Part shown: positions 1 to 13,052 of the stretch, in pieces
Layout of the letters: the number at the start of each line of letters is the position of its first letter
Numbering within the stretch: the stretch's first letter is position 1
Assembly (NCBI RefSeq): GCF_012927085.1
Contig: NZ_JABBFX010000005.1
Span: 128,276-192,275 of the forward strand
Direction: 5' to 3'
Source: Ramlibacter agri
GTDB lineage: Bacteria > Pseudomonadota > Gammaproteobacteria > Burkholderiales > Burkholderiaceae_C
DNA: 64,000 nucleotides
Program-made: the position numbers and the translations under genes
Notes under the pieces: generated by a model
Database searches by the model: none
What the model saw: the letters and a program-made list of their open reading frames with translations, nothing else
What the model was told of the DNA's origin: nothing

Positions 1-3000
1 GCGACGCGAACGGGCGCGTCACCGGTCAGGGCTTCGACTCGGGTGGCAACCTGGCGGTGGACGTGCAAGCCGACGGCTGGCTCGTGCGCCACACCTACGA
101 CATCTTCGGCGACGAGCTCCGCACCACGAGCGCCGAGGGCCGCACCGTCGTCTACACCTACGACAAGGCCGGCCGCAAGTTGACCGCCACGCATGGCGTC
201 GCCGCGGTCTACCAGGCGAGCGGCCAGTGGGCGTCGCAGGTCGACTATCGCAACATCATCGAACGTTGGACCTACGACGAACTGGGGAACAAGCTCAACG
301 CGATCAACGGCAACTACGAGGAAACGCAATACATCTACGACGTGCAGGGCAACCTGCTGCAGACCCGGTTGCCGCTCGGTATTTCCACCCGTGCCGCCTA
401 TGACGCGCAAGGCCGCAAGATCGCGGAGGTCGATGCGGAGGGCAAGTCGTCGCAGTGGACGTACGACTACTTCGGCCAGCTGAAGACGCACGTCGACCAG
501 GGCGGCGGCATTTACCAGTACACGTACGACGGCGTGCGCCAGCTGGTGAGGGAAGTCATCACCCGCGGCGCCCCGGCAACGACGCTCTTCTTCTCCTACG
601 ACTCCGCGGGCCAGGTCACCGAGATGTACGACTCGGCGGTGGACAAGACCACCAGGTATTGGTACGACCTGAGCGGCAGGCGCGTCCGCGAATGGACGAT
701 GCAGGCAGGCGTCACCTACCAGGACAACCACCTCGCCTACGACGCTCGCGGCAACCTGCGCGACGTGGCCGATTCGCGGGTGCACATCGCCATGGAGTAC
801 GACAAGGTCGGCAACCGCACGCACATCGCGAGCTATGTCGACTACCGCGGGGTGAATGGAGCGGAGCAGCAGCCGCCGATCAGCGACCGTTGGTTCCGCT
901 ACGACGAGATGAACAGGCAGGTCATCGTCGATGGCGTGGACGCGCTGAACATCGGCCAACAAGGCCACTCGATCGCGTACGACCACGATGGCAATCGCAT
1001 CAGCGACCTGGCCTGGGGCAACCGCATCGTGCAGTCTGGCGGGCAGGCAGTGCTGGTGGGTTTCAACTCGGACGACACCGCGGTCTACGGCACCACGCCA
1101 GTGACATTCAGCGCCGGTTCGGGCTACAGCACCGAGGTCTATCGCTACGACGCGTTGTCGCGTTTGACGAGTGTCGTCAAAGACGGCGTCCAGATCGACA
1201 TGCGCTTCTACGACGGCGCCGACCGCGTAATCCAGTCCGGCCCGGTGGTGGCGCTGCCGAGCACCAATTACGGCGACCTGATCAACCAAGGCGTTGCGCC
1301 CGGTGACATGAACGGCAAGGAGCGCCGGCTGAACCGCTATGACGCGAACGGACGCTTGCTGCAGCAGGCGGTCTACACGCCAAGTGGAAGCACGAAGGTG
1401 GTCATCCACTGGGGCCCCGGCGACGCCGTCGAAGGCAAGGATCCGGATGGCTACGACCGGGCGGGCAACGTGAAAGGCTACGTGGTGCAGAACTACGAAG
1501 CCGGGGAGGTGACCGAGTTCACCAACTCGCCGGCCTACTACGAGGGCGCGGTCGTGCAGACGACGGTCGGGAATTCCTCCAAGCGCGGAACGGCGACCAC
1601 CACGCAAAGCTACGACGCGAACGGGTACCTGGTCGGCCTTGTCGACTCAGGCCAGCACGCCAACGACCGGATCTTCGTGAACGACGCTAGCGGGCGTGCC
1701 CTGTTCGTCAATCAGGGCGGCAATGTGCAGCGCCAGTTCATCGTCAACGGCGAAGTTCTGGGCATCTATGGCGCGGCCGTCAACCCGCTAGCCAGCGGCA
1801 GCACGCCGCAGTTCGCCAACCTGGTGGATTTCGACTTTGGCTATGCGCGCATCAGCGCGAGCTATCCGCTGCCAAGCCCTGGCGCGTATACGGTGCGCAC
1901 CGGCGACACGCTCCAGAGCATCGCCCAGGGTGCCTACGGCGACAGCAGCCTCTGGTACCGCATCGCCGAAGCCAATGGCCTCGCATCCGCCAAGGACCTG
2001 AAGGTCGGCACGACGCTGAACATCCCGAACCGGGTGTCCAGCATCCACAACAACGCGAGCACGTTCGAGCCCTACGACCCGAGCCGGATCGAGGGGGACA
2101 AGACGCCGACGATGCCGATGCCGCAGAACAAGCATGGCTGCGGGGGTGTGGGGACGTTGGTGATGGTGATCGTGGCGGTTGCCGTGACGGCCATGACCGG
2201 CGGAGCCGGTGGCGTCATAGCGCAAGCCCTGATCGATATGGGCATGGCCGCCATAGCGGATGTGGGTGCCTTCGTGATCGGAGCAGCGCTGGGCAACATG
2301 GCGGGGCAGGCCGTTGGCATGGCCATCGGTGCTCAGGACCGATTTGATTGGAAGTCGGTGGGTCTAAGCGCGGCGTCTGCCGCCTTCACGGCTGGTATCG
2401 GAGTCGCAGCCAATACACCTGGGGGAGTCCTGTCCGACACCTTCCTTTCAGGGAGTGAGACCCCGGCGATCATGGGACGTGCGGCGGTGAGCAACCTGGC
2501 AACGCAGGGTTTGGGGGTCGCTACTGGCCTGCAAGATCATTTCGACTGGCGCGGGGTGGCAGCGTCCTACTTCGGCAGCGGGCTCAGTAACGACGTGGCC
2601 GGGCAGGTTGGAGACTTTGGCGGTACAGCTGCCGGACTGTTTGCGAACCGCGCGGTCAGCGCTTTCGCCGGAGGGACCCTTGCGCAGCTGATGCGCGGTG
2701 GGCGGGTGGTCGTGCAGCAGGTGGCGGTGGATGCGTTTGGGAACACCATAGGCGAGAGTCTCGCTGCAGTAGCCCACGACCAGATCGTCTTCAACTTGTC
2801 AAACTCCGGAAACGAAAGTGCAGCAGGAAGCCAGATCGGTGCAGGTCCAAATCGCAATATCGACGGAGAAGGTTGGGATCTAAACGTCGTCGCTCGGCGC
2901 GCCGAGAGAGATCCGTATGGGATACGCCAGAACGGTGCAGATGCTGCATCAGTCATGCGTCGAGCCAAGGCGCTCTGGGGCACCGAGGTCGTCGGTGGGT

Positions 3001-3974
3001 TGAGCGATTCCTCGACGGAGTCTGATGTGCTGGCCGTTCAAATGAGGGCCGCCGGATTTCAAGACGATGTCATGTTAGTGGGAGGTGCAAGCGTACGCGT
3101 AACGCCGCGCACGGGTGCCGTCTCGGGTGAGATCAATGGGATAAGTGTTAACGCACGCGCTGATGCAGCGTTTCAGGCTGCCGGAGACTTACTTGGTATG
3201 GGAGACCTCTATCGAGACTACAAGCTGCTGGGATCGCTCATGAGCGACCTTCAACAGACCGCGACGCTCGACAAGCTTAAAGGCGCACTTCAGGAGAAGC
3301 TTGGAATGATGCGGGTGGTGCCTTCTCCCGAAGCCTTAGGGGCCACATCGAACCTCGGAGATGACGGCGTCGTTCGGTACAACAATGCGGAACTAATCGA
3401 CCGATATGCGGATGCGCTTCGGAAGGTTGAAATGTGGAAGCGAGGCATCGTTGAACTAGATACACGCAGCATGTTGATCACGTCGATTGGCAATCAGCGC
3501 ATGAGCCCGACACAGTGGGTCGAGGAAAACACGCAACGCTATCAACGTGCGTTCGCTGCCGCTGTCGAGGATGGACGCCAAAAGTACGCCCAAGGCGCGC
3601 TGCCATATCCCTCCGAAATGCCGGAGCAACTTCAGGTTGGCGTATTCGGTCACCAACAGGCTGAGCGAGTGATTGTTCGCTATAACACTGCACTTGGCGT
3701 TCCTGAGGGACCAGGCCAGTTGATCGTCATGAATAGGTGGGCATATGATCCAGCAGGGACTGGAACGACGATACGGCCAGACATGCTCCTGGACTTGGGG
3801 CCGAATCGGCCAGGGCAAGTCCTGCGCTTCGTGGTGGATGGCAAATCTTCTCTCGTAGAGGCCCAATCCTCAAATTCGCAATTCAGTCGTGCGAGTGAGT
3901 GGCTTGGCACGCGATCGATTAGGGCTGCAACTCCTGAAGGATTGTGGTCATGGACACCTACGAAACGGAGGTGA
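1..3974 (+). CDS. Rhs/YD-repeat polymorphic toxin with LysM domain and C-terminal nuclease-like tail (5' partial)
   Basis: The frame is open from base 3, so the true start lies upstream of the window; the GTG at 57 is only an internal codon. About bases 90-1700 encode tyrosine-aspartate repeats of the Rhs/wall-associated type (YDxxGR, YDxxGN). A LysM peptidoglycan-binding domain follows at about 1882-2037 (YTVRTGDTLQSIA ... LNIPN). Next is a Gly/Ala-rich hydrophobic stretch (about 2150-2420), then a C-terminal region with visibly lower GC and a different codon style. Near the end, RPDMLLDL (Asp codon 3780-3782) followed by FVVDGKSS (DGK at 3837-3845) fits the D...(D/E)xK core of restriction-endonuclease-fold toxins. 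Family knowledge: such proteins encapsulate and deliver a variable C-terminal toxin to competitor cells. The nuclease assignment is inferred from motif spacing; the Rhs-like class is clear. A small gene follows after 4 bases, as expected for an immunity partner. Confidence 0.85.
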   Translation, partial: DANGRVTGQGFDSGGNLAVDVQADGWLVRHTYDIFGDELRTTSAEGRTVVYTYDKAGRKLTATHGVAAVYQASGQWASQVDYRNIIERWTYDELGNKLNAINGNYEETQYIYDVQGNLLQTRLPLGISTRAAYDAQGRKIAEVDAEGKSSQWTYDYFGQLKTHVDQGGGIYQYTYDGVRQLVREVITRGAPATTLFFSYDSAGQVTEMYDSAVDKTTRYWYDLSGRRVREWTMQAGVTYQDNHLAYDARGNLRDVADSRVHIAMEYDKVGNRTHIASYVDYRGVNGAEQQPPISDRWFRYDEMNRQVIVDGVDALNIGQQGHSIAYDHDGNRISDLAWGNRIVQSGGQAVLVGFNSDDTAVYGTTPVTFSAGSGYSTEVYRYDALSRLTSVVKDGVQIDMRFYDGADRVIQSGPVVALPSTNYGDLINQGVAPGDMNGKERRLNRYDANGRLLQQAVYTPSGSTKVVIHWGPGDAVEGKDPDGYDRAGNVKGYVVQNYEAGEVTEFTNSPAYYEGAVVQTTVGNSSKRGTATTTQSYDANGYLVGLVDSGQHANDRIFVNDASGRALFVNQGGNVQRQFIVNGEVLGIYGAAVNPLASGSTPQFANLVDFDFGYARISASYPLPSPGAYTVRTGDTLQSIAQGAYGDSSLWYRIAEANGLASAKDLKVGTTLNIPNRVSSIHNNASTFEPYDPSRIEGDKTPTMPMPQNKHGCGGVGTLVMVIVAVAVTAMTGGAGGVIAQALIDMGMAAIADVGAFVIGAALGNMAGQAVGMAIGAQDRFDWKSVGLSAASAAFTAGIGVAANTPGGVLSDTFLSGSETPAIMGRAAVSNLATQGLGVATGLQDHFDWRGVAASYFGSGLSNDVAGQVGDFGGTAAGLFANRAVSAFAGGTLAQLMRGGRVVVQQVAVDAFGNTIGESLAAVAHDQIVFNLSNSGNESAAGSQIGAGPNRNIDGEGWDLNVVARRAERDPYGIRQNGADAASVMRRAKALWGTEVVGGLSDSSTESDVLAVQMRAAGFQDDVMLVGGASVRVTPRTGAVSGEINGISVNARADAAFQAAGDLLGMGDLYRDYKLLGSLMSDLQQTATLDKLKGALQEKLGMMRVVPSPEALGATSNLGDDGVVRYNNAELIDRYADALRKVEMWKRGIVELDTRSMLITSIGNQRMSPTQWVEENTQRYQRAFAAAVEDGRQKYAQGALPYPSEMPEQLQVGVFGHQQAERVIVRYNTALGVPEGPGQLIVMNRWAYDPAGTGTTIRPDMLLDLGPNRPGQVLRFVVDGKSSLVEAQSSNSQFSRASEWLGTRSIRAATPEGLWSWTPTKRR

Positions 3975-3978
3975 GGAA

Positions 3979-4374
3979 ATGGGGAAGAAGGAAGTGAGAG
4001 AGTTCGAGGATGAACTCGTTGGCGTGCAGGGAGGCATATCATTGTTCCGGAAGGGAATTGATGAGTTCTTCCTTTCGCACGGTTTCTTGATTGCGAACGA
4101 CAAGCTGCAGGCCGCGCGCAAGGATTTGGAGGCGCTTGGGTTGTTCGAGCGGTGCAGTCAGGCGCTCCGACGCACAGAGGAACTCGTGAAACTTGGTCCG
4201 GCGCACGACCAGGAGGCCGAGATGCTGATCCTCGAGACCGCTCGCGCTCTGATGAAGGCGTCTGGTACGCATGACGCCATGCGCAAGATGCTCCTCCAGA
4301 AGCCCACTGCTTCAGTTGAAGACTACAAGCCCGATCCAGATGCGTGGGCGCGAGAAGATCGGCAGAACAAGTAG
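3979..4374 (+). CDS. candidate immunity protein for the upstream Rhs-like toxin
   Basis: This 131-residue product (MGKKEVREFEDELVG...) matches no family I recognise. The ATG at 3979 is chosen because GGAGGTGAGGA, a strong ribosome-binding site, lies just upstream and overlaps the toxin stop codon. An in-frame start at 3889 would lie inside the toxin gene. The protein looks soluble, largely helical and rich in charged residues, with no signal peptide or membrane segment, so a cytoplasmic location is likely. Its position 4 bases after the toxin stop, its small size and its lower GC than the surrounding chromosome are the usual marks of a cognate immunity gene. That function is inferred from position only; no immunity motif is visible. 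Confidence 0.6.
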   Translation: MGKKEVREFEDELVGVQGGISLFRKGIDEFFLSHGFLIANDKLQAARKDLEALGLFERCSQALRRTEELVKLGPAHDQEAEMLILETARALMKASGTHDAMRKMLLQKPTASVEDYKPDPDAWAREDRQNK

Positions 4375-4441
4375 AGACAGCGCTCAATGTCCCTCGAGTC
4401 AGATCCAATGTGCGGTACTGCCAAGGTCTCTAGCGGGCAGT

Positions 4442-4470
4442 TGCTAGCGCGATAGAGATCGCGACTAGCA
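4442..4470 (+). terminator. hairpin downstream of candidate immunity gene, possible terminator
   Basis: TGCTAGCGCGAT pairs with ATCGCGACTAGCA with one bulged base, around the loop AGAG. Only a short CCTTT follows, so intrinsic termination is possible but not strong. Confidence 0.35.
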
Positions 4471-4515
4471 CCTTTAGATGCGGTGAGCGTTCGCCTGAAG
4501 TGACGCAAGCCCTCG

Positions 4516-4543
4516 CACGGCGCCGAGCCCCCTCGGCGCCGTG
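4516..4543. repeat. perfect 12-bp inverted repeat
   Basis: CACGGCGCCGAG and CTCGGCGCCGTG are perfect complements around a CCCC loop. There is no T tract on either side, so this is a structural hairpin rather than a classical intrinsic terminator. Confidence 0.5.
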
Positions 4544-4739
4544 CTGGCCACTGCCGGCACACCTGACGACGCCTATCCCTCGCACCGGCGGATGCGCGTG
4601 GCCAAGCCGCAGTGGTCAGGCGTTGGCGGGCATGCGGGGTCGATTGGATCGGTCGGCGGTGTGCGTCCCTCCCTGAACCAATACATCCGCGGCTGGACGA
4701 AGAAGTTTAGAAGCGAGGCGACGAACGGTAGTGGGCGAG

Positions 4740-4777
4740 CCCTCACCCCAACCCTCTCCCCAGAGGGGCGAGGGAGG
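4740..4777. repeat. dispersed palindromic repeat (CCCTCACCCCAACCCTCTCC type)
   Basis: The core CCCTCTCCCC-AGA-GGGGCGAGGG (4752-4774) is an inverted repeat with one mismatch, preceded by CCCTCACCCCAA. This sequence type is a familiar intergenic repeat in GC-rich proteobacterial genomes; only one copy was noticed in this window. Confidence 0.55.
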
Positions 4778-4894
4778 AAAACGCGCAACAACGGCCCCGC
4801 CGAACTGAGCAATAGTTGGCACGCCACCCTTCCGCATTCGACCGTCGATTCCTATCATCCCGCCGGGGACTACCCCCACAAGGAGAAGAAAAGA

Positions 4895-5260
4895 ATGACG
4901 TTCATCGATGCCGTCAAGGCCTGCTTCGGCAAGTACGCCACCTTCTCGGGCCGCGCCGGGAAGGCGGAATTCTGGTGGTTCGCCCTGTTCCAGTTCATCG
5001 TCCTTCTGGTGCTCGGCATGTTCAGCAACCTTCTCTATGGCCTGGCCAGCCTCGCCCTGCTGCTGCCGGCGCTGGCCGTGGGCACGCGCCGCCTGCACGA
5101 CATCGGCAAGAGCGGCTGGTTCCAGCTGATCTGGCTGGTCCCCTTCGTCGGCTGGATCTTGCTGATCTACTGGCTGGTGCAGCCCAGCGGGCCGGCCAAC
5201 GCATACGGCGACGGGCCCGATGCGCCGTTGCCGGAGGATGTGGTGCCCGGGGCGCAATAA
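4895..5260 (+). CDS. DUF805 family small membrane protein
   Basis: The 121-residue protein fits DUF805 (YhaH-type) inner-membrane proteins: an aromatic N-terminal motif (FSGRAGKAEFWWF), hydrophobic segments at about residues 30-70 and 78-100, and the signature TRRLHDIGKSGW between them. The ATG at 4895 follows AAGGAGAAGAAAAGA, a good ribosome-binding site; longer in-frame starts would run through the intergenic repeat. The tail is hydrophilic and acidic. Biochemical function is unknown for the family. It is a single gene, ending at a strong bidirectional terminator shared with the convergent transporter operon. Confidence 0.85.
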   Translation: MTFIDAVKACFGKYATFSGRAGKAEFWWFALFQFIVLLVLGMFSNLLYGLASLALLLPALAVGTRRLHDIGKSGWFQLIWLVPFVGWILLIYWLVQPSGPANAYGDGPDAPLPEDVVPGAQ

Positions 5261-5281
5261 GAGCCGAGGTCGCACAGGCAG

Positions 5282-5310
5282 AAAGGGCCGGATTCAGTCC
5301 GGCCCTTTTC
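5282..5310. terminator. bidirectional intrinsic terminator
   Basis: AAAGGGCCGGA (5282-5292) and TCCGGCCCTTT (5298-5308) form a perfect 11-bp stem with loop TTCAG. A T run closes it on both strands. It serves the DUF805 gene and the convergent ABC transporter operon. Confidence 0.85.
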
Positions 5311-5328
5311 ATTGGCGCGAAGGAGAAC

Positions 5329-6092
<764 letters not shown>

Positions 6093-6096
<4 letters not shown>

Positions 6097-7340
6097 TGCA
6101 GGCGCTCCCCGGTGCGGCGGCGGTAGATCACGTCGAACACCACGGCGACGATCAGCACCTGCCCGATGATCAGCATGCGGTTGCCCACGCTCACGTCCAG
6201 CAGCAGCAGCCCGCTTTCCAGGAACTGGATGACCAGCGCGCCGAGCACCGTTCCCAGCACCGTGCCACTGCCGCCGGACAGCGCGATGCCGCCGATCACC
6301 GCTGCGGCGATAGCGTACAGCTCCATGCCCGTGCCCAATGAATTCGTGCCGGCATTCAGGCGCGAGACGGCGACGACCCCGGCCACGGCCACCATCGTCC
6401 CGAGCAGCAGGAAGCTTTTGAGCATGACCCACTTCACCGGGATACCTACCAGCGCCGCGGCTTCCGGGTTGCCGCCGATCGCATAGATGTAGCGGCCGAA
6501 GCTGGTGCGGTTGACGATGAAGGCGACCAGCGCCACGACGCCACCCCAGATCAGCACCGGGTTCGGGATGCCTTGCGGCACGTCCTTGCTGGGGATGCGG
6601 TACGCGCACATGGTGGCGACGAAGGCCAGCACCGCCACCGCGAAGAAGCCGGTGTACAGCACGTCCAGCAGCAGCGGCCGCGGCGCGAAGCCGTGCTGCA
6701 CCGCCAGGCGCCGCCGCTGCATGGTGCTCCACGCAAGCCACGCACACACGGCGATGCCAAGCACCCAGCTCGCCGTGACGCCGATGGCGCCATCGATGCC
6801 GCCGCCGATCAAGAGGAAGGTGGCGTCGGTGACCGGCTGCGTGCGCCCATCGGAGATCAGGTAGGCCACGCCGCGGAAGGTGACCAGGCCGCCCAGCGTC
6901 ACCACGAACGATGGCACGCCGATATAGGCCGTCAGCCAGCCCTGGTACAGCGCGATCACCAGCGCGACCACCCATCCCGCCAGGCACGCGGGCACCCAGT
7001 GCCAGCCCTTGGTGTAGATCAGCCAGGCGACCAGCACGCCCACCGTGGCCAGCACCGAACCCACCGACAGGTCGATCTGCCGCTCCACGATCACGAGGCC
7101 GATGGCCGCTGCGACGATGCCGACCACCGCCGACTGCTGCGCGATGTTGTACAGGTTCTCCGGCGTGATGAAGTTGCCGGTGACGACGTGGAAGGCGATC
7201 GCCATGACCGCCAGCACGGCGGTCATGATCGCCAGCCGCAAGTCGAGCGAGCTGATATGCAGGCGCTCGTTCAGCGGCAGGGACGGGGCTCGCGTCCCGC
7301 CCTCCGCCAAGGCCTGCGTTCCCTCCGCCGGCTGCGCCAT
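6093..7340 (-). CDS. xylH: sugar ABC transporter permease (XylH-like)
   Basis: The 415-residue polytopic inner-membrane protein belongs to the ribose/xylose permease family (BPD_transp_2). Around ten hydrophobic segments are visible, with the family motifs IDLSVGS (after the third segment), [10 protein letters not shown], and the cytoplasmic ATPase-contact region [15 protein letters not shown] chose the ATG at 7340; the GTG directly before it (7343) is equally possible. The binding-protein stop lies about 14 bases upstream, and the 3' end overlaps the ATPase start. Similarity to XylH is judged from remembered family sequence, so the sugar could be another pentose or hexose. Confidence 0.88.
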
Positions 7341-7353
7341 CACGACCCGGAGG

Positions 7354-8376
7354 TCACTTGCAGGCTGCCGGCCCGGTGGCCTTGTCGACGCCGCGGCAGG
7401 CGTCGTCCTTGCTGATCCAGCCGGCCTTGATGACGACGTCGAGGTTGCTCGCCGTGATCGGGATCGGCTTCAGCAGGATGGCGTTCATCTTCACCTTCTT
7501 CTCGCCGCCTGCGAAGCTGGTGGCGTTCGGCACCTTCTGGCCCTTGGCCAGCGCCACGGCCACGGTGGCGGCTTCGCGGCCGAGGTCGCGCGAGTCCTTC
7601 CACACGGAGACAGTCTGCGTGCCCAGTGCCACCCGGTTCAGCGCCGCATGGTCGCCGTCCTGGCCCGAGACCGGCACGCCCTTCAGCCCGCGTGCGGACA
7701 GCGCCGCCACCACGCCGCCGGCCGTGCCGTCGTTGGAGGCCACCACCGCGTCGACCTTGTTGCCGGACTTGGTGAGGATCTGCTCCATGTTCTTCTGCGC
7801 CACTTCGGGCTTCCAGCCGTCGGTGTATTCCTCGCCCACGATCTTGATGTCGCCCTTCTTGACCGCGTCGCCGATCACCTCCTGCTGGCCTTCGCGCAGC
7901 AGGTTGGCGTTGGGGTCGGTGGAGGAGCCCTTGATCATGGCGTAGTTGCCCTTGGGCTTGACCTTGAAGATGGAGCCCGCCTGCAGGCGTCCCACCTCCT
8001 TGTTGTCGAAGGAGATGTAGAACACTTCCGGCGCCTCGATCAGGCGGTCGTACGCCACCACGGGAATGCCGCGCGCCTTGGCCTTGGCGAGGGCAGGGGC
8101 GATGGCGTCCTTGTCGTAGGCCAGGATGATGAGGACCTTGGCGCCCTTGTTGATGAGGCCTTCGACATCGGCGATCTGCTTTTCAGCCGAGGCGTTGGCG
8201 TCCGCGCTGACGTAGCTGGCGCCGAGCTTGGCGAGTTGGTCCTTGATGGCCTTCTCGTCGGTCTTCCAGCGCTCCTCCTGGAAGTTGGACCAGCTGACGC
8301 CGACGACCTGGGCGAAGCTGGTCGAACACGCACCGGCCACGAGGGCCGCGAACAGGAGCTGAAACTGCTTCTTCAT
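7354..8376 (-). CDS. xylF: D-xylose-type periplasmic sugar-binding protein
   Basis: This 340-residue type I periplasmic binding protein opens with a Sec signal peptide ([16 protein letters not shown]..., cleavage probably after SFA near residue 22). It resembles E. coli XylF strongly: ERWKTDEKA near the N-terminus, [14 protein letters not shown], a DGWKPE motif, [11 protein letters not shown] and SGQDGD. It would capture a sugar, probably xylose, and deliver it to the permease. The start at 8376 is backed by AGGAAGAG upstream and by the signal peptide. It is the first gene of a binding protein-permease-ATPase operon. No xylose catabolic gene is nearby, so the ligand remains a family-based inference. 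Confidence 0.88.
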
Positions 8377-8478
8377 GGCTCTTCCTCCACTGTGGATGCG
8401 GAGCGGAGATTCCAGCACGTTTTGCCGCGCCCCGGAAGCGGGGCATCGCCATAGGGAATACGCCGAACGCGGCCCAGG

Positions 8479-8502
8479 AAAGACCGGGCGCGGGGCCCGG
8501 GT
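8479..8502 (-). terminator. probable terminator of the histidine kinase operon
   Basis: Read on the minus strand, ACCCGGGC-CCCGC-GCCCGGT with one bulge is followed by CTTTCC, directly after the kinase stop codon (8505-8507). The T tract is short, so strength is uncertain. It would separate the two-component operon from the xylF operon downstream. Confidence 0.5.
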
Positions 8503-8504
8503 TC

Positions 8505-10454
8505 TCATGCGCCTTCGCCAGCCGCCTCGGCCGCGGCTTCCACCGCGGACGCGAGCGGGAGCCACAAGGTGAAACAGGTGCCCTCCGGACCCGAGCGCCA
8601 TTCGGCCCGTCCCCCGACCGCTTCCGCGCGCCGCAACTGGTTGCGCAGCCCCCGCCCGGTGCCCTCCGCCCGTGCCTTGCCGACGTCGAAACCGTGGCCG
8701 TTGTCTTCGATGCAGACCTCCACGCCGCCGTCCGCGATACCGGTGGCCACGTGGATCTCCGTGGCGCGCGTATGGCGCAGGATGTTGGTGACCGCTTCCT
8801 GCAGGATGCGCAGGACGTGCAGCGCGGTCGAAGCGTCGAGCCACGGCAGCGGGGGGATGTCGCGCACCTCCCAGCGCAGCGTGAGGCCCGCGCTCTCGAT
8901 GCGCGGCTCCAGCCGGAAACGCAGCGTCGCCAGCAGCAGCAGCAGGTCCGGCTCGACCTGCTCCATCGAGTCGATGGCGAGCTTCAGGTCGTCCATGCAG
9001 TCGGCGAGCAGCTGCGCCACGTCGGCGTCAGTCAAGGTTCCGCGTTCCACCGAACGGATGGCGCTCGTGAGCGAGGAGCCGAGGCCGTCGTGCATGTCCT
9101 GCATCAGGCGTTGCCGCTCCTCGTGCAGCACCTGCCGCTGCTCCACGGCCCGCAGCCTGTCGTAGCTGAGAGCCAGCTCCGCCTCGCGGGCCGCCAGGCG
9201 GTGCGCCAGGCCGGCGTTGACGCTCTCCACCTCGCCGATCGCGCATACGTAGCGCCGCAGCATGATGAACATGAGGGCGGCAAGGTGAAATGCGGGAATG
9301 TAGGGCGTGAGGTAGAACCACTCCATCGGCAGCAGGTGCTGGGCCAGCACCCAGTCGTAGACGCCGGCGACCAGGGCGAGGACGATGGTGGCGCAGAGCA
9401 GCATGCCGTCCCAGGAGCGGCTGCGCGCCGAATGCCACAGGCCCGCGACGAGGACGATCGTCACCAGCGACATCTGCAGCACCTGCAGGGCCGGGCGCAG
9501 CAGCAGCAGCGCGGGGAGCGCGCCCAGGGGCAAGGTGAGCACCGTGAAGAAGGACGTGAGCACCACCAGCGCCAGCGTCAGCCGCGGCATGGGCCGGCCG
9601 TGCAGCAGTTGCAGGAAGGCATGCATGATCACGATCTGCCAGGCCAGCGCGTTGACGGTGATCCAGCCGAACCAGGCATCGCTGACCGGCAGCGCTTCCA
9701 GCCCCGTGTGGAAGTGCCAGCGCCGCACCACCTGCAGCAGGGAGAAGCCCGCCAGCAGCAGGTACAGCGGTTCGCCGCGCAGCCAAAGCGACACGCCGAG
9801 GCAGAACAGCCCCACCGCCAGGAACGCCGCGCTGCTCATGAAAGGAACCTGGTATTCGAACCACTCCCGCACCGTGTACTGCGAGAGCAGGGCCCGCGCG
9901 CTGCCCACGTAGAACGACGACAGTCCGCCCCCCGCGCCCTGCACGCTGTCCATGCGGACCAGGATCTCGCGCGGCACGGGCTCCGAGGGCGTGCGGCTCA
10001 GGGGAACGAGCAGTCCGGGGTGCCGGAACACGTGCCACGCGGGGCTGCCGACCGAACGATGGACCAGGCGGCCGTCCGCATACACGGCGATCTGGCCCGC
10101 GGTCTGCCAGCGCTTGACGTACAGGCTGGCCGTGTCGCCGGGGTTGTCCAGGGCCGGTACCTGTACGCGGAACCAGCGCGTGGACACACTCGGTGCATCG
10201 GGATTCAGGATCACCTCGCGCGCGAACGTGAAGGGCAGCGCCACCTCGCGCCAGCCCGCGGCCAGGCGCTGCGCCTCGACGCGGTCCTGCAGCGGCGCCG
10301 CGGGGCCTGGCACTTCCAGCTCCTGCGCGGAGGTGAAGTGCGCGACGGGGCCAGGGGCTGCCTGCGCCCAGGCCATCCCGCAGGCCAGCAGCAAAGCCGC
10401 GGCGATCAGCGCTCGCAAGGTGGCAACCACGGCAGGGGGCCTCATGGCCCGCAT
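8505..10454 (-). CDS. 7TMR-DISM-type sensor histidine kinase (second of a tandem pair)
   Basis: The 649-residue kinase has a signal peptide (ends AWA near 30) and a periplasmic beta-rich domain to about 195 ([26 protein letters not shown]). Seven or so transmembrane helices follow at about 205-400, then a coiled linker, a HisKA_3 dimerisation domain with the phospho-accepting His455 in [11 protein letters not shown], and a HATPase domain ([21 protein letters not shown]). HisKA_3 kinases pair with NarL/LuxR-type regulators, and one is encoded two genes upstream. The start at 10454 leaves 11 bases after the preceding kinase; the ATG at 10445 is an alternative. It is a clear paralogue of that kinase over its whole length. 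The stimulus is unknown; 7TMR-DISM input domains are often thought to bind carbohydrate-like ligands. Confidence 0.9.
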
Positions 10455-10465
10455 TGTGCTCGGCC

Positions 10466-12382
10466 TCAGGTTGCGCCCTCCCGCACCAGGGGCAGGCGCA
10501 ACACCAGCACCGAGCCGCCCGGAGTGGATTCGTAGCGGACGTCGCCGCCCACCGCCTGCGCCCGCCGCTGCTGGTTGCCCAGGCCGCGGCCACCGGCTTC
10601 CAGCGCCTGCGCCACGTCGAATCCGCGCCCGTTGTCGACGATGCTCACCGTCACCCAGCCCGCCGCGGTGTCGGTGCGCAGGCGGATCTCCGTGGCGTGG
10701 GCGTGCTTCAGCGCGTTGGCGAAGGCTTCCTGCACGATGCGCAGCACGTGCAGCGCATTGCGCGGGTCCAGCCAGGGCAGCGGCGGCACCTCGTGCACGT
10801 CCCAGTGCAGGGTGATGCCGGTGCCATCGAGGCGGCTCTCCAGGCGGAAGCGCAACGTGGCGAGCAGCAGCAGCAAGTCCGTGTCGATCGTTTCCATCGA
10901 ATCGATGGCGAGCTTCAGGTCGTCGATGCAGCTGGCGAGCAGCACTTCCACTTCGGCCGCGTCCAGACGGCCCTGGCGCGCGGCGCGCAGCGCGCTCACC
11001 AGCGAGGAGCCCAGCCCGTCGTGCATGTCCTGCATCAGCCGCTCGCGCTCGTCGGCGATCATTTGCCGCCGCTCGACCGCCCGCAGGCGCTCGTGGCTGG
11101 CGTTGAGTTCGGCTTCGCGCTCCCGCAACCGGTGTTCCAGGCTCGCGTTCGCCAGCCTCACGTCGTCCATCGCTCCCATGTAGCGGCGGTACATGATCAG
11201 CATGAAGATCAGGAAGGCCCCGATGCCGGCATACGAACCGAGGTAGCTGCCTTCGACGTCGACCCGGTTGTTCTGCAGCGCCCACTCGTAGGCGCCCAGG
11301 ACGAGCGAGACGAGGCTCCAGCCCGCCAGCAGCAGCGCATCGCGCGAGCGCGTGCGCCGCGAACTCGCCAGGCCGAAGCCGAAGGCCACGATGCTCACCG
11401 CCAGCAGGATGCCGTAAAGCAGCGGCGCCAGCAGCGTCGCGCCCGGCAGGCCCGAAGGCAGCGCCGGCAGCGTGGCCAGGCTGACGGCCGCCGCCACGCC
11501 CAGCACCGTCTGGTCAAGCCAGCGCCGGCGTTCGCCGTGCAGCCGCACCAGGAAGAAGTGCGCCGTCGCCACCAGCCAGAACAGCGAGGCCACGGTGAGC
11601 CAGCCGAACCAGGCGTCGGACACCGGCAAGCGCTCCAGGCCCACGTAGTAGTGCAGGTTGCGCACGAACGACGCGGCCGACATCAGGAAGAACAGCAGGT
11701 ACAAGCGCTCCTGCCTGCGCCGAAGCCACACCAGGAACGCGAACACGCCTACGGCCAGGAAAGCGGCGCTCGTCATTCGCGGCAGCTGGATCTGCAGCAT
11801 GTCGCGCACGCGGTAGCGCCAGGCAATGGCCGCCTCATCGCCCAGCCACAGGCTGGAGATCGCGCCGCCGGTGTCGTGCAGCCGCTGGATGCGCAGCACC
11901 ACGGTGGCGGGCAGCGGGCCCGCGGTGGCGCCGTCCAGCGCGATCCACAGGGGATGGTTCGAACCGTTCCACAGCAGGTTGGCGTGGGACCGGTAGACGA
12001 GGCGGCCGTCGGCGTACACCGCGATCTGGCCGTCGGTCTTCCAGCGCGGCACGTACAGGTAGGCGGGGCCAGCCAGCGCGCCGGCCGCGGCAGCCGGCAC
12101 CTGGGCCCGATACCAGGTGACCACGGTCCGCGCCGCGCCACCTTCCGGTTCGGGCAGCAGCTGCGGCGGCAATGCGTGGGGCAGGGCGACAGGCTGCCAG
12201 GCGCCGTCCGGTCCTTGCGGCGCGATGGCGTGCGGGGGCGGCGAGAAGCCGCGGCCTTCCACCGTGAGCAGCTGCGCCTGCGTGATGCGCAGGCCGCCCG
12301 CTGCCGCCGGTGGCGCGAGGAGCAGCAGCGCGGCGAGGCAGGCGACGCTAGTCGCCCAGCAGCCCTTGCGTGCGTGCCTCAT
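10466..12382 (-). CDS. 7TMR-DISM-type sensor histidine kinase (first of a tandem pair)
   Basis: The 638-residue protein has the same plan as the kinase downstream: signal peptide (about 1-28), a periplasmic beta-rich input domain ([26 protein letters not shown]), a seven-helix membrane region at about 200-400, a coiled linker, HisKA_3 with His454 in [11 protein letters not shown], and a HATPase domain (EAFANALKHA, VDNGRGFD, GGRGLGNQ). The ATG at 12382 overlaps the response regulator's 3' end by 35 bases, so the two are translationally linked. The loop SDAWFGW between membrane helices is shared by both kinases. Two near-full-length paralogous kinases beside a single regulator suggests heterodimers or integration of two signals; this is inference. 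Confidence 0.9.
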   Translation of the reverse strand: MRHARKGCWATSVACLAALLLLAPPAAAGGLRITQAQLLTVEGRGFSPPPHAIAPQGPDGAWQPVALPHALPPQLLPEPEGGAARTVVTWYRAQVPAAAAGALAGPAYLYVPRWKTDGQIAVYADGRLVYRSHANLLWNGSNHPLWIALDGATAGPLPATVVLRIQRLHDTGGAISSLWLGDEAAIAWRYRVRDMLQIQLPRMTSAAFLAVGVFAFLVWLRRRQERLYLLFFLMSAASFVRNLHYYVGLERLPVSDAWFGWLTVASLFWLVATAHFFLVRLHGERRRWLDQTVLGVAAAVSLATLPALPSGLPGATLLAPLLYGILLAVSIVAFGFGLASSRRTRSRDALLLAGWSLVSLVLGAYEWALQNNRVDVEGSYLGSYAGIGAFLIFMLIMYRRYMGAMDDVRLANASLEHRLREREAELNASHERLRAVERRQMIADERERLMQDMHDGLGSSLVSALRAARQGRLDAAEVEVLLASCIDDLKLAIDSMETIDTDLLLLLATLRFRLESRLDGTGITLHWDVHEVPPLPWLDPRNALHVLRIVQEAFANALKHAHATEIRLRTDTAAGWVTVSIVDNGRGFDVAQALEAGGRGLGNQQRRAQAVGGDVRYESTPGGSVLVLRLPLVREGAT

Positions 12383-13052
12383 AGATCGCTTCGGCCTTGG
12401 ACTTGACCTTGAGCTTCACGTAGATGCGGCGCACGAAGGTCAGCACGGTATAGCGCGAGAGCTCCATCAGCCTGGCGATCTCGTCCGCCGTGAAGCCCTT
12501 GGTGATGAAGTCCAGCACTTCGCGCTCGCGCGGCGACAGCGAGATCGGCGTGTCCGGCGCGGCTTCGGCCGGCGGCGGGGCTGCGTTGACCGCATCGCCG
12601 GCGACGGGACGAAAGCGGCGCAGCACCTGGCGCGCAATGATCGGGCTGATGGGGCTGCCACCGGCCGCGAGGCTGCGGATCTCGGCGACCATCCTGCCCG
12701 GCGCGGCGTCCTTCAGCAGGTAGCCCGCGGCGCCCGCCTCGATCGAGCGCATCACGTTGGTCTCGTCGCCGAAGGTGGTGCTCACCATGATTCCGCAGTC
12801 CGGCCAGGCGCGCGCCGCGGCCTGGATGACGTCGATGCCCGAGCCATCGGGCAGGCCCAGGTCCACCAGCAGCACGTCGGCCGGCGTGTCCCGCAGCAAC
12901 GCGAGGCCCTGCGTGCGCGTGGCCGCCCGGCCGGCGAGCGCCATGTCGTCGGCGGCCTGGACGGCGCGCGCCAGCGCGCCCTGGAACTCCGGGTCGTCAT
13001 CGACGATGGCCACCCGGATCGGAGCGTTCGCTGGGACTGCGGAAGAAGTCAC
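12348..13052 (-). CDS. NarL/FixJ-family two-component response regulator
   Basis: The protein is 234 residues from the GTG at 13052. A receiver domain (acidic pair in IVDDD, phospho-acceptor Asp64 in LLVDLGLPDG, Lys in YLLKDAAPG) is joined to a LuxR-type helix-turn-helix (LSPREREVLDFITKGF ... ADEIARLMELSRYTV). An in-frame ATG at 13133 would add 27 residues but leave almost no room for promoters before the divergent tpsB start at 13142, so I prefer the GTG; neither has a strong ribosome-binding site. It heads the operon with the two kinases. Divergent placement next to the tpsB-tpsA pair makes these genes the likely targets, but this is not shown by sequence alone. Confidence 0.88.
   Translation of the reverse strand: MTSSAVPANAPIRVAIVDDDPEFQGALARAVQAADDMALAGRAATRTQGLALLRDTPADVLLVDLGLPDGSGIDVIQAAARAWPDCGIMVSTTFGDETNVMRSIEAGAAGYLLKDAAPGRMVAEIRSLAAGGSPISPIIARQVLRRFRPVAGDAVNAAPPPAEAAPDTPISLSPREREVLDFITKGFTADEIARLMELSRYTVLTFVRRIYVKLKVKSKAEAIYEARTQGLLGD

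Follow-up and report, generated by a model that had tools for sequence, protein, structure and literature searches.

A giant YD-repeat carrier-toxin gene of Ramlibacter agri with an exchangeable, predicted nuclease tail, and the association of its carrier family with a second flagellar-type cluster

The giant gene, its toxin tail and its partner

The stretch analysed here (the window) comprises 64,000 nucleotides (nt) of Ramlibacter agri contig NZ_JABBFX010000005.1 (assembly GCF_012927085.1; G000:C5:128276-192275 in whole-genome coordinates) and opens within a giant YD/Rhs-repeat gene that ends in a putative nuclease toxin and is followed by a small partner gene (Table 1). The corresponding frame (nt 3-3974, forward strand) remains open past the left edge of the window and belongs, as its 3' portion, to a frame of 4,221 codons (L009:6585-19250). 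An earlier note, made from the window alone, had proposed retrieving the upstream sequence, and this recovered the whole gene: a start at C5:119617, common to relatives and 8.7 kb upstream of the window, gives a protein of 4,210 amino acids (aa; P0001). YD dipeptides occur 86 times in the 4,221-codon frame and the repeats cover most of the protein length, with PF05593 matching both the window part (E=2.6e-24) and the first 889 aa (E=3.7e-50). The YD-repeat model of NCBIfam also matches the giant protein, and the RHS element core model does so partially (42.5 bits versus a cut-off of 2000, positions 468-716 of 1261). The N-terminal portion of the carrier, of about 100 aa, is conserved; no Sec signal was seen on the giant protein by eye, no signal predictor having been run.

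The features that the earlier note had read in the 3' part, namely YD repeats, a LysM domain, a hydrophobic stretch and a compositionally distinct tail, are borne out by the PF05593 and PF01476 matches, by the sequence itself and by a drop in G+C content at third codon positions (GC3). In blocks of 300 nt, GC3 is 0.85-0.92 over nt 3-2102, 0.75 and 0.69 in the next two blocks, and 0.54-0.62 from nt 2703 on, while overall G+C is 0.54-0.59 in the blocks spanning 2751-4500, which include the following gene. Since GC3 falls and the low G+C runs through the next gene, the tail and this gene have the look of a horizontally acquired, exchanged cassette. The note had placed LysM where the carrier/toxin boundary would be expected; the domain does precede the variable region, but it is not itself the boundary, as the carrier runs on to a motif containing DAFGNALG. 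The same note had seen no DPxGL core end, which is correct near the boundary; two DPxGL strings do occur, at residues 1327 and 1372, both within the YD repeats. Between the repeats and the toxin there is none, and past the repeats DPxG is found only as DPYGI (residue 3868, nt 2910) and, inside the toxin, as DPAGT. The hydrophobic Gly/Ala-rich stretch has a possible role in membrane insertion.

The tail is in all likelihood a PD-(D/E)XK nuclease. The RPDMLLDL and VVDGKSS strings that had originally hinted at a restriction endonuclease (REase)-like toxin are located at nt 3774 and 3831, and both the predicted fold and the conservation of the D and DxK residues in homologues, whose verification had been proposed, support this assignment. 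Among 47 aligned relatives (52 aligned rows minus P0060-P0062, P0064 and P0065, which do not reach the motif), D is kept in 47/47, D/E in 47/47, K in 46/47 and Q in 47/47; the D...[DE]xK arrangement is therefore no chance match. The sole exception at K, a distant relative (P0066) in which serine (DGS) replaces the catalytic lysine, is perhaps an inactive or misaligned version. When the fold was assessed with AlphaFold, Foldseek and VIA-align, the tail model (predicted local distance difference test, pLDDT, 84.7) found its best match in the Protein Data Bank (PDB) in Cas4 and placed D and ExK on neighbouring strands between two helices. That the invariant E, D, [DE]xK and Q set falls on the expected strands and helix of the model argues against a protein of some other kind with a restriction-endonuclease-like arrangement, which is an improbable alternative.

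Pfam contains named Tox-REase families. No family was found for the tail (Table 1), and running 38 aligned tail members (own included) against Pfam gave chance-level rows only (best E 0.054, no REase family); sequence searches of the PDB with tail and partner likewise gave only chance-level rows. The tail thus represents a new polymorphic-toxin family with a predicted REase fold. Searches for the tail returned 4/399 and 2/369 genomes, the own genome in both, with G045 as a genuine further case; G393 (L013) and G417 (L015) were dropped as chance matches, and G322 (L014) was dropped because its match is the carrier/tail junction and not the toxin. Four viral stretches fitted the tail pattern and none was confirmed.

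The partner gene has 18 relatives besides itself, and a homologue lies directly after the toxin tail in 6/6 loci examined (five loci from GTDB plus the own one). The partner profile was found in 4/399 family genomes, namely the own one, G045 (with the tail), G177 and G322; as the last two have no toxin match, orphan partner genes exist. The partner model is all-helical (pLDDT 91) and uninformative in Foldseek, where no match had E under 0.6 and most were helical bundles. Pfam, NCBIfam and PADLOC gave no family, the sole Pfam row having E 0.081. The partner is a probable immunity protein, and the gene as a whole very probably encodes a polymorphic toxin accompanied by its immunity function. At another locus (L050:7602-10824) the same tail and partner occur on a 412-codon open reading frame (ORF), and another carrier-like fragment lies downstream.

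Table 1. Features of the giant gene and its partner, in nucleotide positions of the window
Feature	Position	Strand	Basis or remark
Giant YD/Rhs-repeat carrier-toxin gene, 3' third	3..3974	+	whole gene G000:C5:119617-132249, ~4,210 aa
Last YD/RHS repeats of the carrier	3..1620	+	PF05593; final repeat-region YD dipeptide at full residue 3435
LysM domain (peptidoglycan binding)	1887..2027	+	PF01476, E=2e-8, 34.5 bits (cut-off 20.9), residues 629-675
Hydrophobic Gly/Ala-rich stretch within the constant carrier	2133..2333	+	sequence; also in carriers with other tails
Carrier/toxin boundary motif RGGRVVVQQVAVDAFGNTIGESLA	2694..2765	+	same motif in carriers with unrelated tails
Variable tail, low GC3 (~400 residues)	2766..3974	+	composition, carrier comparison
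Modelled toxin region, 279 aa	3135..3971	+	no Pfam, NCBIfam or PADLOC family
Predicted PD-(D/E)XK nuclease core	3624..3971	+	alignment motif, predicted fold
Core residues of the predicted nuclease	E191 (3705-3707), D216 (3780-3782), D/E235 (3837-3839), K237 (3843-3845), Q249 (3879-3881)
Cognate partner gene, 131 aa, probable immunity protein	3979..4374	+	predicted all-helical; starts 4 nt after the toxin stop

A constant carrier with exchangeable tails

The LysM-to-boundary part (nt 1752-2790), used as a probe on 399 family genomes, detected the carrier in 28, of which 16 have a frame of at least 3,000 codons (the longest 6,183). For the comparison of tails, 20 carrier stretches were taken, 18 of which yielded a tail (no carrier match was obtained for L061 and L073), with two pairs representing the same gene. 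The resulting 16 distinct tails fell into 15 families (E<=1e-4, last 160 residues), only those of L014 and L027 being alike. In many carriers whose tails are unrelated, the constant region closes with the pattern RGG[RK]V..QQVA.DAFGNALG, which is not matched in every carrier. The carrier shared by the compared genes comprises a conserved N-terminus, YD repeats, LysM and the "DAFGNALG" boundary. An ORF of at least 70 codons, starting between -16 and +20 nt from the stop of the tail, was found in 11/18 carrier rows, and the remaining 7/18 had no such ORF in the fetched stretch, which was short for most; because GC-rich DNA can yield ORFs of this kind by chance, they are supportive only.

The second flagellar-type cluster and its association with the carrier

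In another genome (G228), the giant gene comes directly after genes for FliI, FlgD, FlgE, FliM/FliN, FliO, FliP, a sigma factor, a 126-aa protein and two tetratricopeptide repeat (TPR) proteins of 193 and 386 aa. In the own genome, homologues of the 193-aa TPR protein (TPR193; 34-62% identity to four others) and of the 126-aa protein are encoded just upstream of the giant gene in divergent orientation, and the same cluster as in G228 is found at C1:850-872 kb. By Pfam it encodes FliQ, FliR, FlhA, rod or hook proteins, FlgA, FlgI, FliE and a GH46/peptidoglycan (PG)-binding protein; similarity to G228 adds FliI, FlgD, FlgE, FliN, FliP, the sigma factor, the 386-aa TPR protein (TPR386) and a FliG/MgtE-N-like protein, and FlhB, FlgH, FlgB, FliM and FliF were read by eye. 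This second cluster holds the set of a flagellar-type type III secretion system (T3SS), with export gate, ATPase, MS ring, rod, hook and L/P rings, the rings and hook being represented by FlgH, FlgI and FlgE. The GH46 plus PG_binding_1 protein (L076:10543-11553; G000:C1:850542-851552) heads the cluster and may open the wall in place of FlgJ. All three flagellin-domain hits of the own genome fall next to the other FlhA, at C1:1374-1399 kb. Two plasmid clusters have annotated stretches in which no flagellin, hook-filament junction (FlgK, FlgL), cap (FliD) or stator (MotA/B) protein is named, with hypothetical genes remaining there.

Because FlgE marks the machine, its second-type form (FlgE-2) was preferred to TPR386 as phyletic marker, with a profile built from six genomes and a cut-off of 1e-80 taken from a local check (6e-200 for the own second-type FlgE, 7e-38 at best for other FlgE-like frames). 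FlgE-2 was present in 18/399 genomes, and 16 of these 18 carry the carrier, compared with 28/399 overall (Fisher p=3e-19). The association persisted when the six profile-building genomes were dropped (10/12 versus 22/393, p=1.9e-12) and when genera were counted (13/15 versus 20/141, p=9e-12), these tests taking no account of common descent other than by counting genera. Of the 16 carrier genomes with a frame of at least 3,000 codons, 13 have FlgE-2, as do 3 of the other 12 (p=0.006), a post hoc split in which contig ends shorten some frames.

Carrier, TPR genes and T3SS cluster are also physically linked in several genomes. Among 12 carrier starts, on stretches that had been chosen for carrier or machine, seven lie within 0.5 kb of TPR193 or TPR386 and two at 3.4-4.1 kb from a second-type FlhA (FlhA-2), and three have neither in the fetched stretch. 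In G228, G258 and G386, carrier and cluster form one contiguous block. Among 72,556 plasmid records, the first 300 carrier residues match six, and the best three FlgE-2 plasmid matches (53.5, 43.6 and 37.4% identity) are all on carrier plasmids; the other three carrier plasmids fall outside the best 20 of 211 FlgE-2 matches considered. On pMSMB2035, a conjugative plasmid of Burkholderia ubonensis, the order is FliQ to FliP, sigma factor, TPR, a small gene, a reversed TPR gene and a giant of 4,897 aa, which has RHS repeats and a LysM score of 18.9 bits, just under the 20.9 cut-off, and whose stop is overlapped by a 196-aa gene. In Variovorax PDNC026, gene content and gene order are almost identical. 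The plasmid-borne cluster of Undibacterium YM2 is separated by two genes, over about 3 kb, from the 3' end of a 38.8-kb gene whose N-terminus matches the carrier. This gene (L116:39784-49001 and on; NZ_AP018442.1 129783-168629) is annotated as a tandem-95 repeat protein of ~12,900 aa, and the FlgI near it is annotated as two pieces. A congener (G097; L094:9616-11062, C1) keeps carrier and TPR genes, and in the fetched stretch its machine remnants adjoin as after one large deletion.

Elsewhere in the window, two adjoining minus-strand frames at 8505-12406 resemble paralogous membrane sensor kinases, and Rfam gave no match within positions 1-12000.

Possible export routes and their meaning

In the explanation favoured here, the giant constant carrier ends in an exchangeable toxin, in this case of PD-(D/E)XK fold, which most likely cuts the DNA of a competing bacterium, while the 131-aa partner most likely binds and blocks the toxin in the producer. 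The carrier would most likely be exported by a second, flagellum-derived T3SS that has export gate, ATPase, rod, rings and hook, a sigma factor of its own and no filament genes. TPR proteins encoded beside the carrier would serve as its chaperones, LysM would anchor it to the peptidoglycan, and passage of the tail through the target membrane would be aided by the hydrophobic stretch. The toxin part of this explanation is near-certain. Export of the carrier by the second flagellar T3SS, to which the genetic linkage points, is considered somewhat probable, and the whole explanation, with a filament-less flagellar system exporting giant polymorphic toxins, is held with reasonable if limited confidence. 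The suggestion in the earlier note of a less described delivery architecture was, if anything, understated, given the linkage of the carrier to a second filament-less flagellar-type cluster.

Several observations weigh against such export. In the own genome, carrier and machine are on separate contigs; FlgE-2 is missing in 12/28 carrier genomes (one of which, G143, has a 58%-identical FlhA-2), and two FlgE-2 genomes show no carrier. In G097 the carrier is accompanied by only the sigma factor and fragments of FliP and FlhA. The toxin tail and partner occur also on proteins of 947 and 989 aa (L048:5988-8831, L049:5862-8831) whose N-terminus is proline-rich and which gave no YD or LysM match. Finally, substrates of such length would be out of the ordinary for a T3SS of any kind. 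The missing FlgE-2, the machine remnant in G097 and the huge substrate size, together with the occurrence of both carrier and machine genes on plasmids, would also fit a toxin/immunity pair that leaves the cell by another route (Sec-independent and unidentified, or lysis), the flagellar cluster co-occurring through the same mobile accessory island or lifestyle. This alternative is rather unlikely, since TPR genes of the T3SS cluster adjoin most of the carrier starts compared and also the own carrier, and since long carrier frames concentrate, in the post hoc split, in genomes with FlgE-2.

As for the cluster itself, LysM and YD proteins can be surface-bound, and hook, rod and L- and P-ring genes are all present, so that the cluster might build a real (lateral) flagellum with filament proteins supplied from elsewhere, the giant YD protein being a surface or hook-associated adhesin. 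This is quite improbable: no filament, junction, cap or stator protein is named in the annotated stretches of the two plasmid clusters, hypothetical genes aside, the own flagellin-domain hits are at the other flagellar locus only, and the exchange of tails, together with the small genes next to them, speaks for toxins. Delivery as a canonical type VI secretion system (T6SS) Rhs effector, compatible with the YD/RHS repeats, was rejected as having next to no likelihood, because the search for VgrG and PAAR genes that the earlier note had proposed found neither VgrG (PF05954) nor PAAR (PF05488), nor TssK (PF05936), anywhere in the genome (assembly completeness listed as 100), none of nine neighbouring or second-locus proteins scanned is one of the three, and the boundary is without DPxGL.

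Regarding type II secretion (T2SS), a frame with a T2SSF domain lies near the giant gene (L009:4352-5872). At a second YD-repeat locus (L010:3580-13657; G000:C1:1443579-1453656), two proteins look by eye as if they bear signal peptides and stand beside GspE/GspF/GspG-like genes, also recognized by eye. Other YD proteins may thus have a connection with a T2SS.

T6SS Rhs effectors are linked to PAAR or VgrG and cleaved at DPxGL. They share with the giant protein the RHS/YD repeats, the C-terminal toxin and the immunity gene, but the latter is much longer, has LysM and the hydrophobic stretch, replaces DPxGL by a DAFGNALG boundary and occurs in a genome without T6SS marker. Nucleases of the Cas4/AddB/TnsA type resemble the tail in predicted core fold and in the D, [DE]xK and Q residues, whereas the tail has a long helical N-terminal extension, a toxin context and no relevant PDB sequence match. 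A close parallel is with the polymorphic toxin systems, including Tox-REase clades, described by Zhang et al. 2012 (PMC3482391), which also combine a constant N-terminal carrier, an exchangeable C-terminal toxin, an adjacent immunity gene and RHS repeats; LysM is listed there among adhesion domains, and some of the REase-fold toxins share the E, D, ExK, Q signature. The present tail, by contrast, matches no Pfam, NCBIfam or PADLOC family, and the table entries consulted in that study give T2SS, T5SS, T6SS, T7SS, TcdB/TcaC and PrsW as routes for REase toxins, with no flagellar system among them.

A secretion role has been suggested for the flag-2 secondary flagellar systems of Enterobacterales by the authors describing them (PMC6993521), in whose account one Escherichia fergusonii locus has Rhs/VgrG/Imm26 cargo. 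The likeness lies in the second flagellar locus; the flag-2 Rhs described there has, however, 1,556 aa and stands beside a T6SS VgrG, whereas in the present case a specific family of giant carriers is found together with a filament-less cluster and the TPR genes of that cluster across genera. Flagellar export parts are likewise found in the flagellar T3SS of the non-flagellated Lysobacter enzymogenes (Fulano et al. 2020, via PMC9410377), with no link to Rhs/YD giants noted in that mention. LysM in polymorphic toxins and a secretion role suggested for second flagella are, on these sources, already known. No report pairing a giant YD carrier with a filament-less flagellar cluster was found among the matches listed from open PMC papers, which for some searches were part of all matches.

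A dedicated flagellar delivery machine is a bold reading. It is an even question whether, in Burkholderiales, the filament-less flagellum is a dedicated weapon-export machine for giant YD/LysM toxins (~4,000-6,200 aa), with interchangeable warheads, TPR chaperones and a private sigma factor, movable as one plasmid module. If true, this would add a delivery route to the list known for polymorphic toxins and explain what second flagellar clusters lacking filament genes are for; the carrier so defined, with its clear boundary motif, would make many new toxin-immunity pairs readable.

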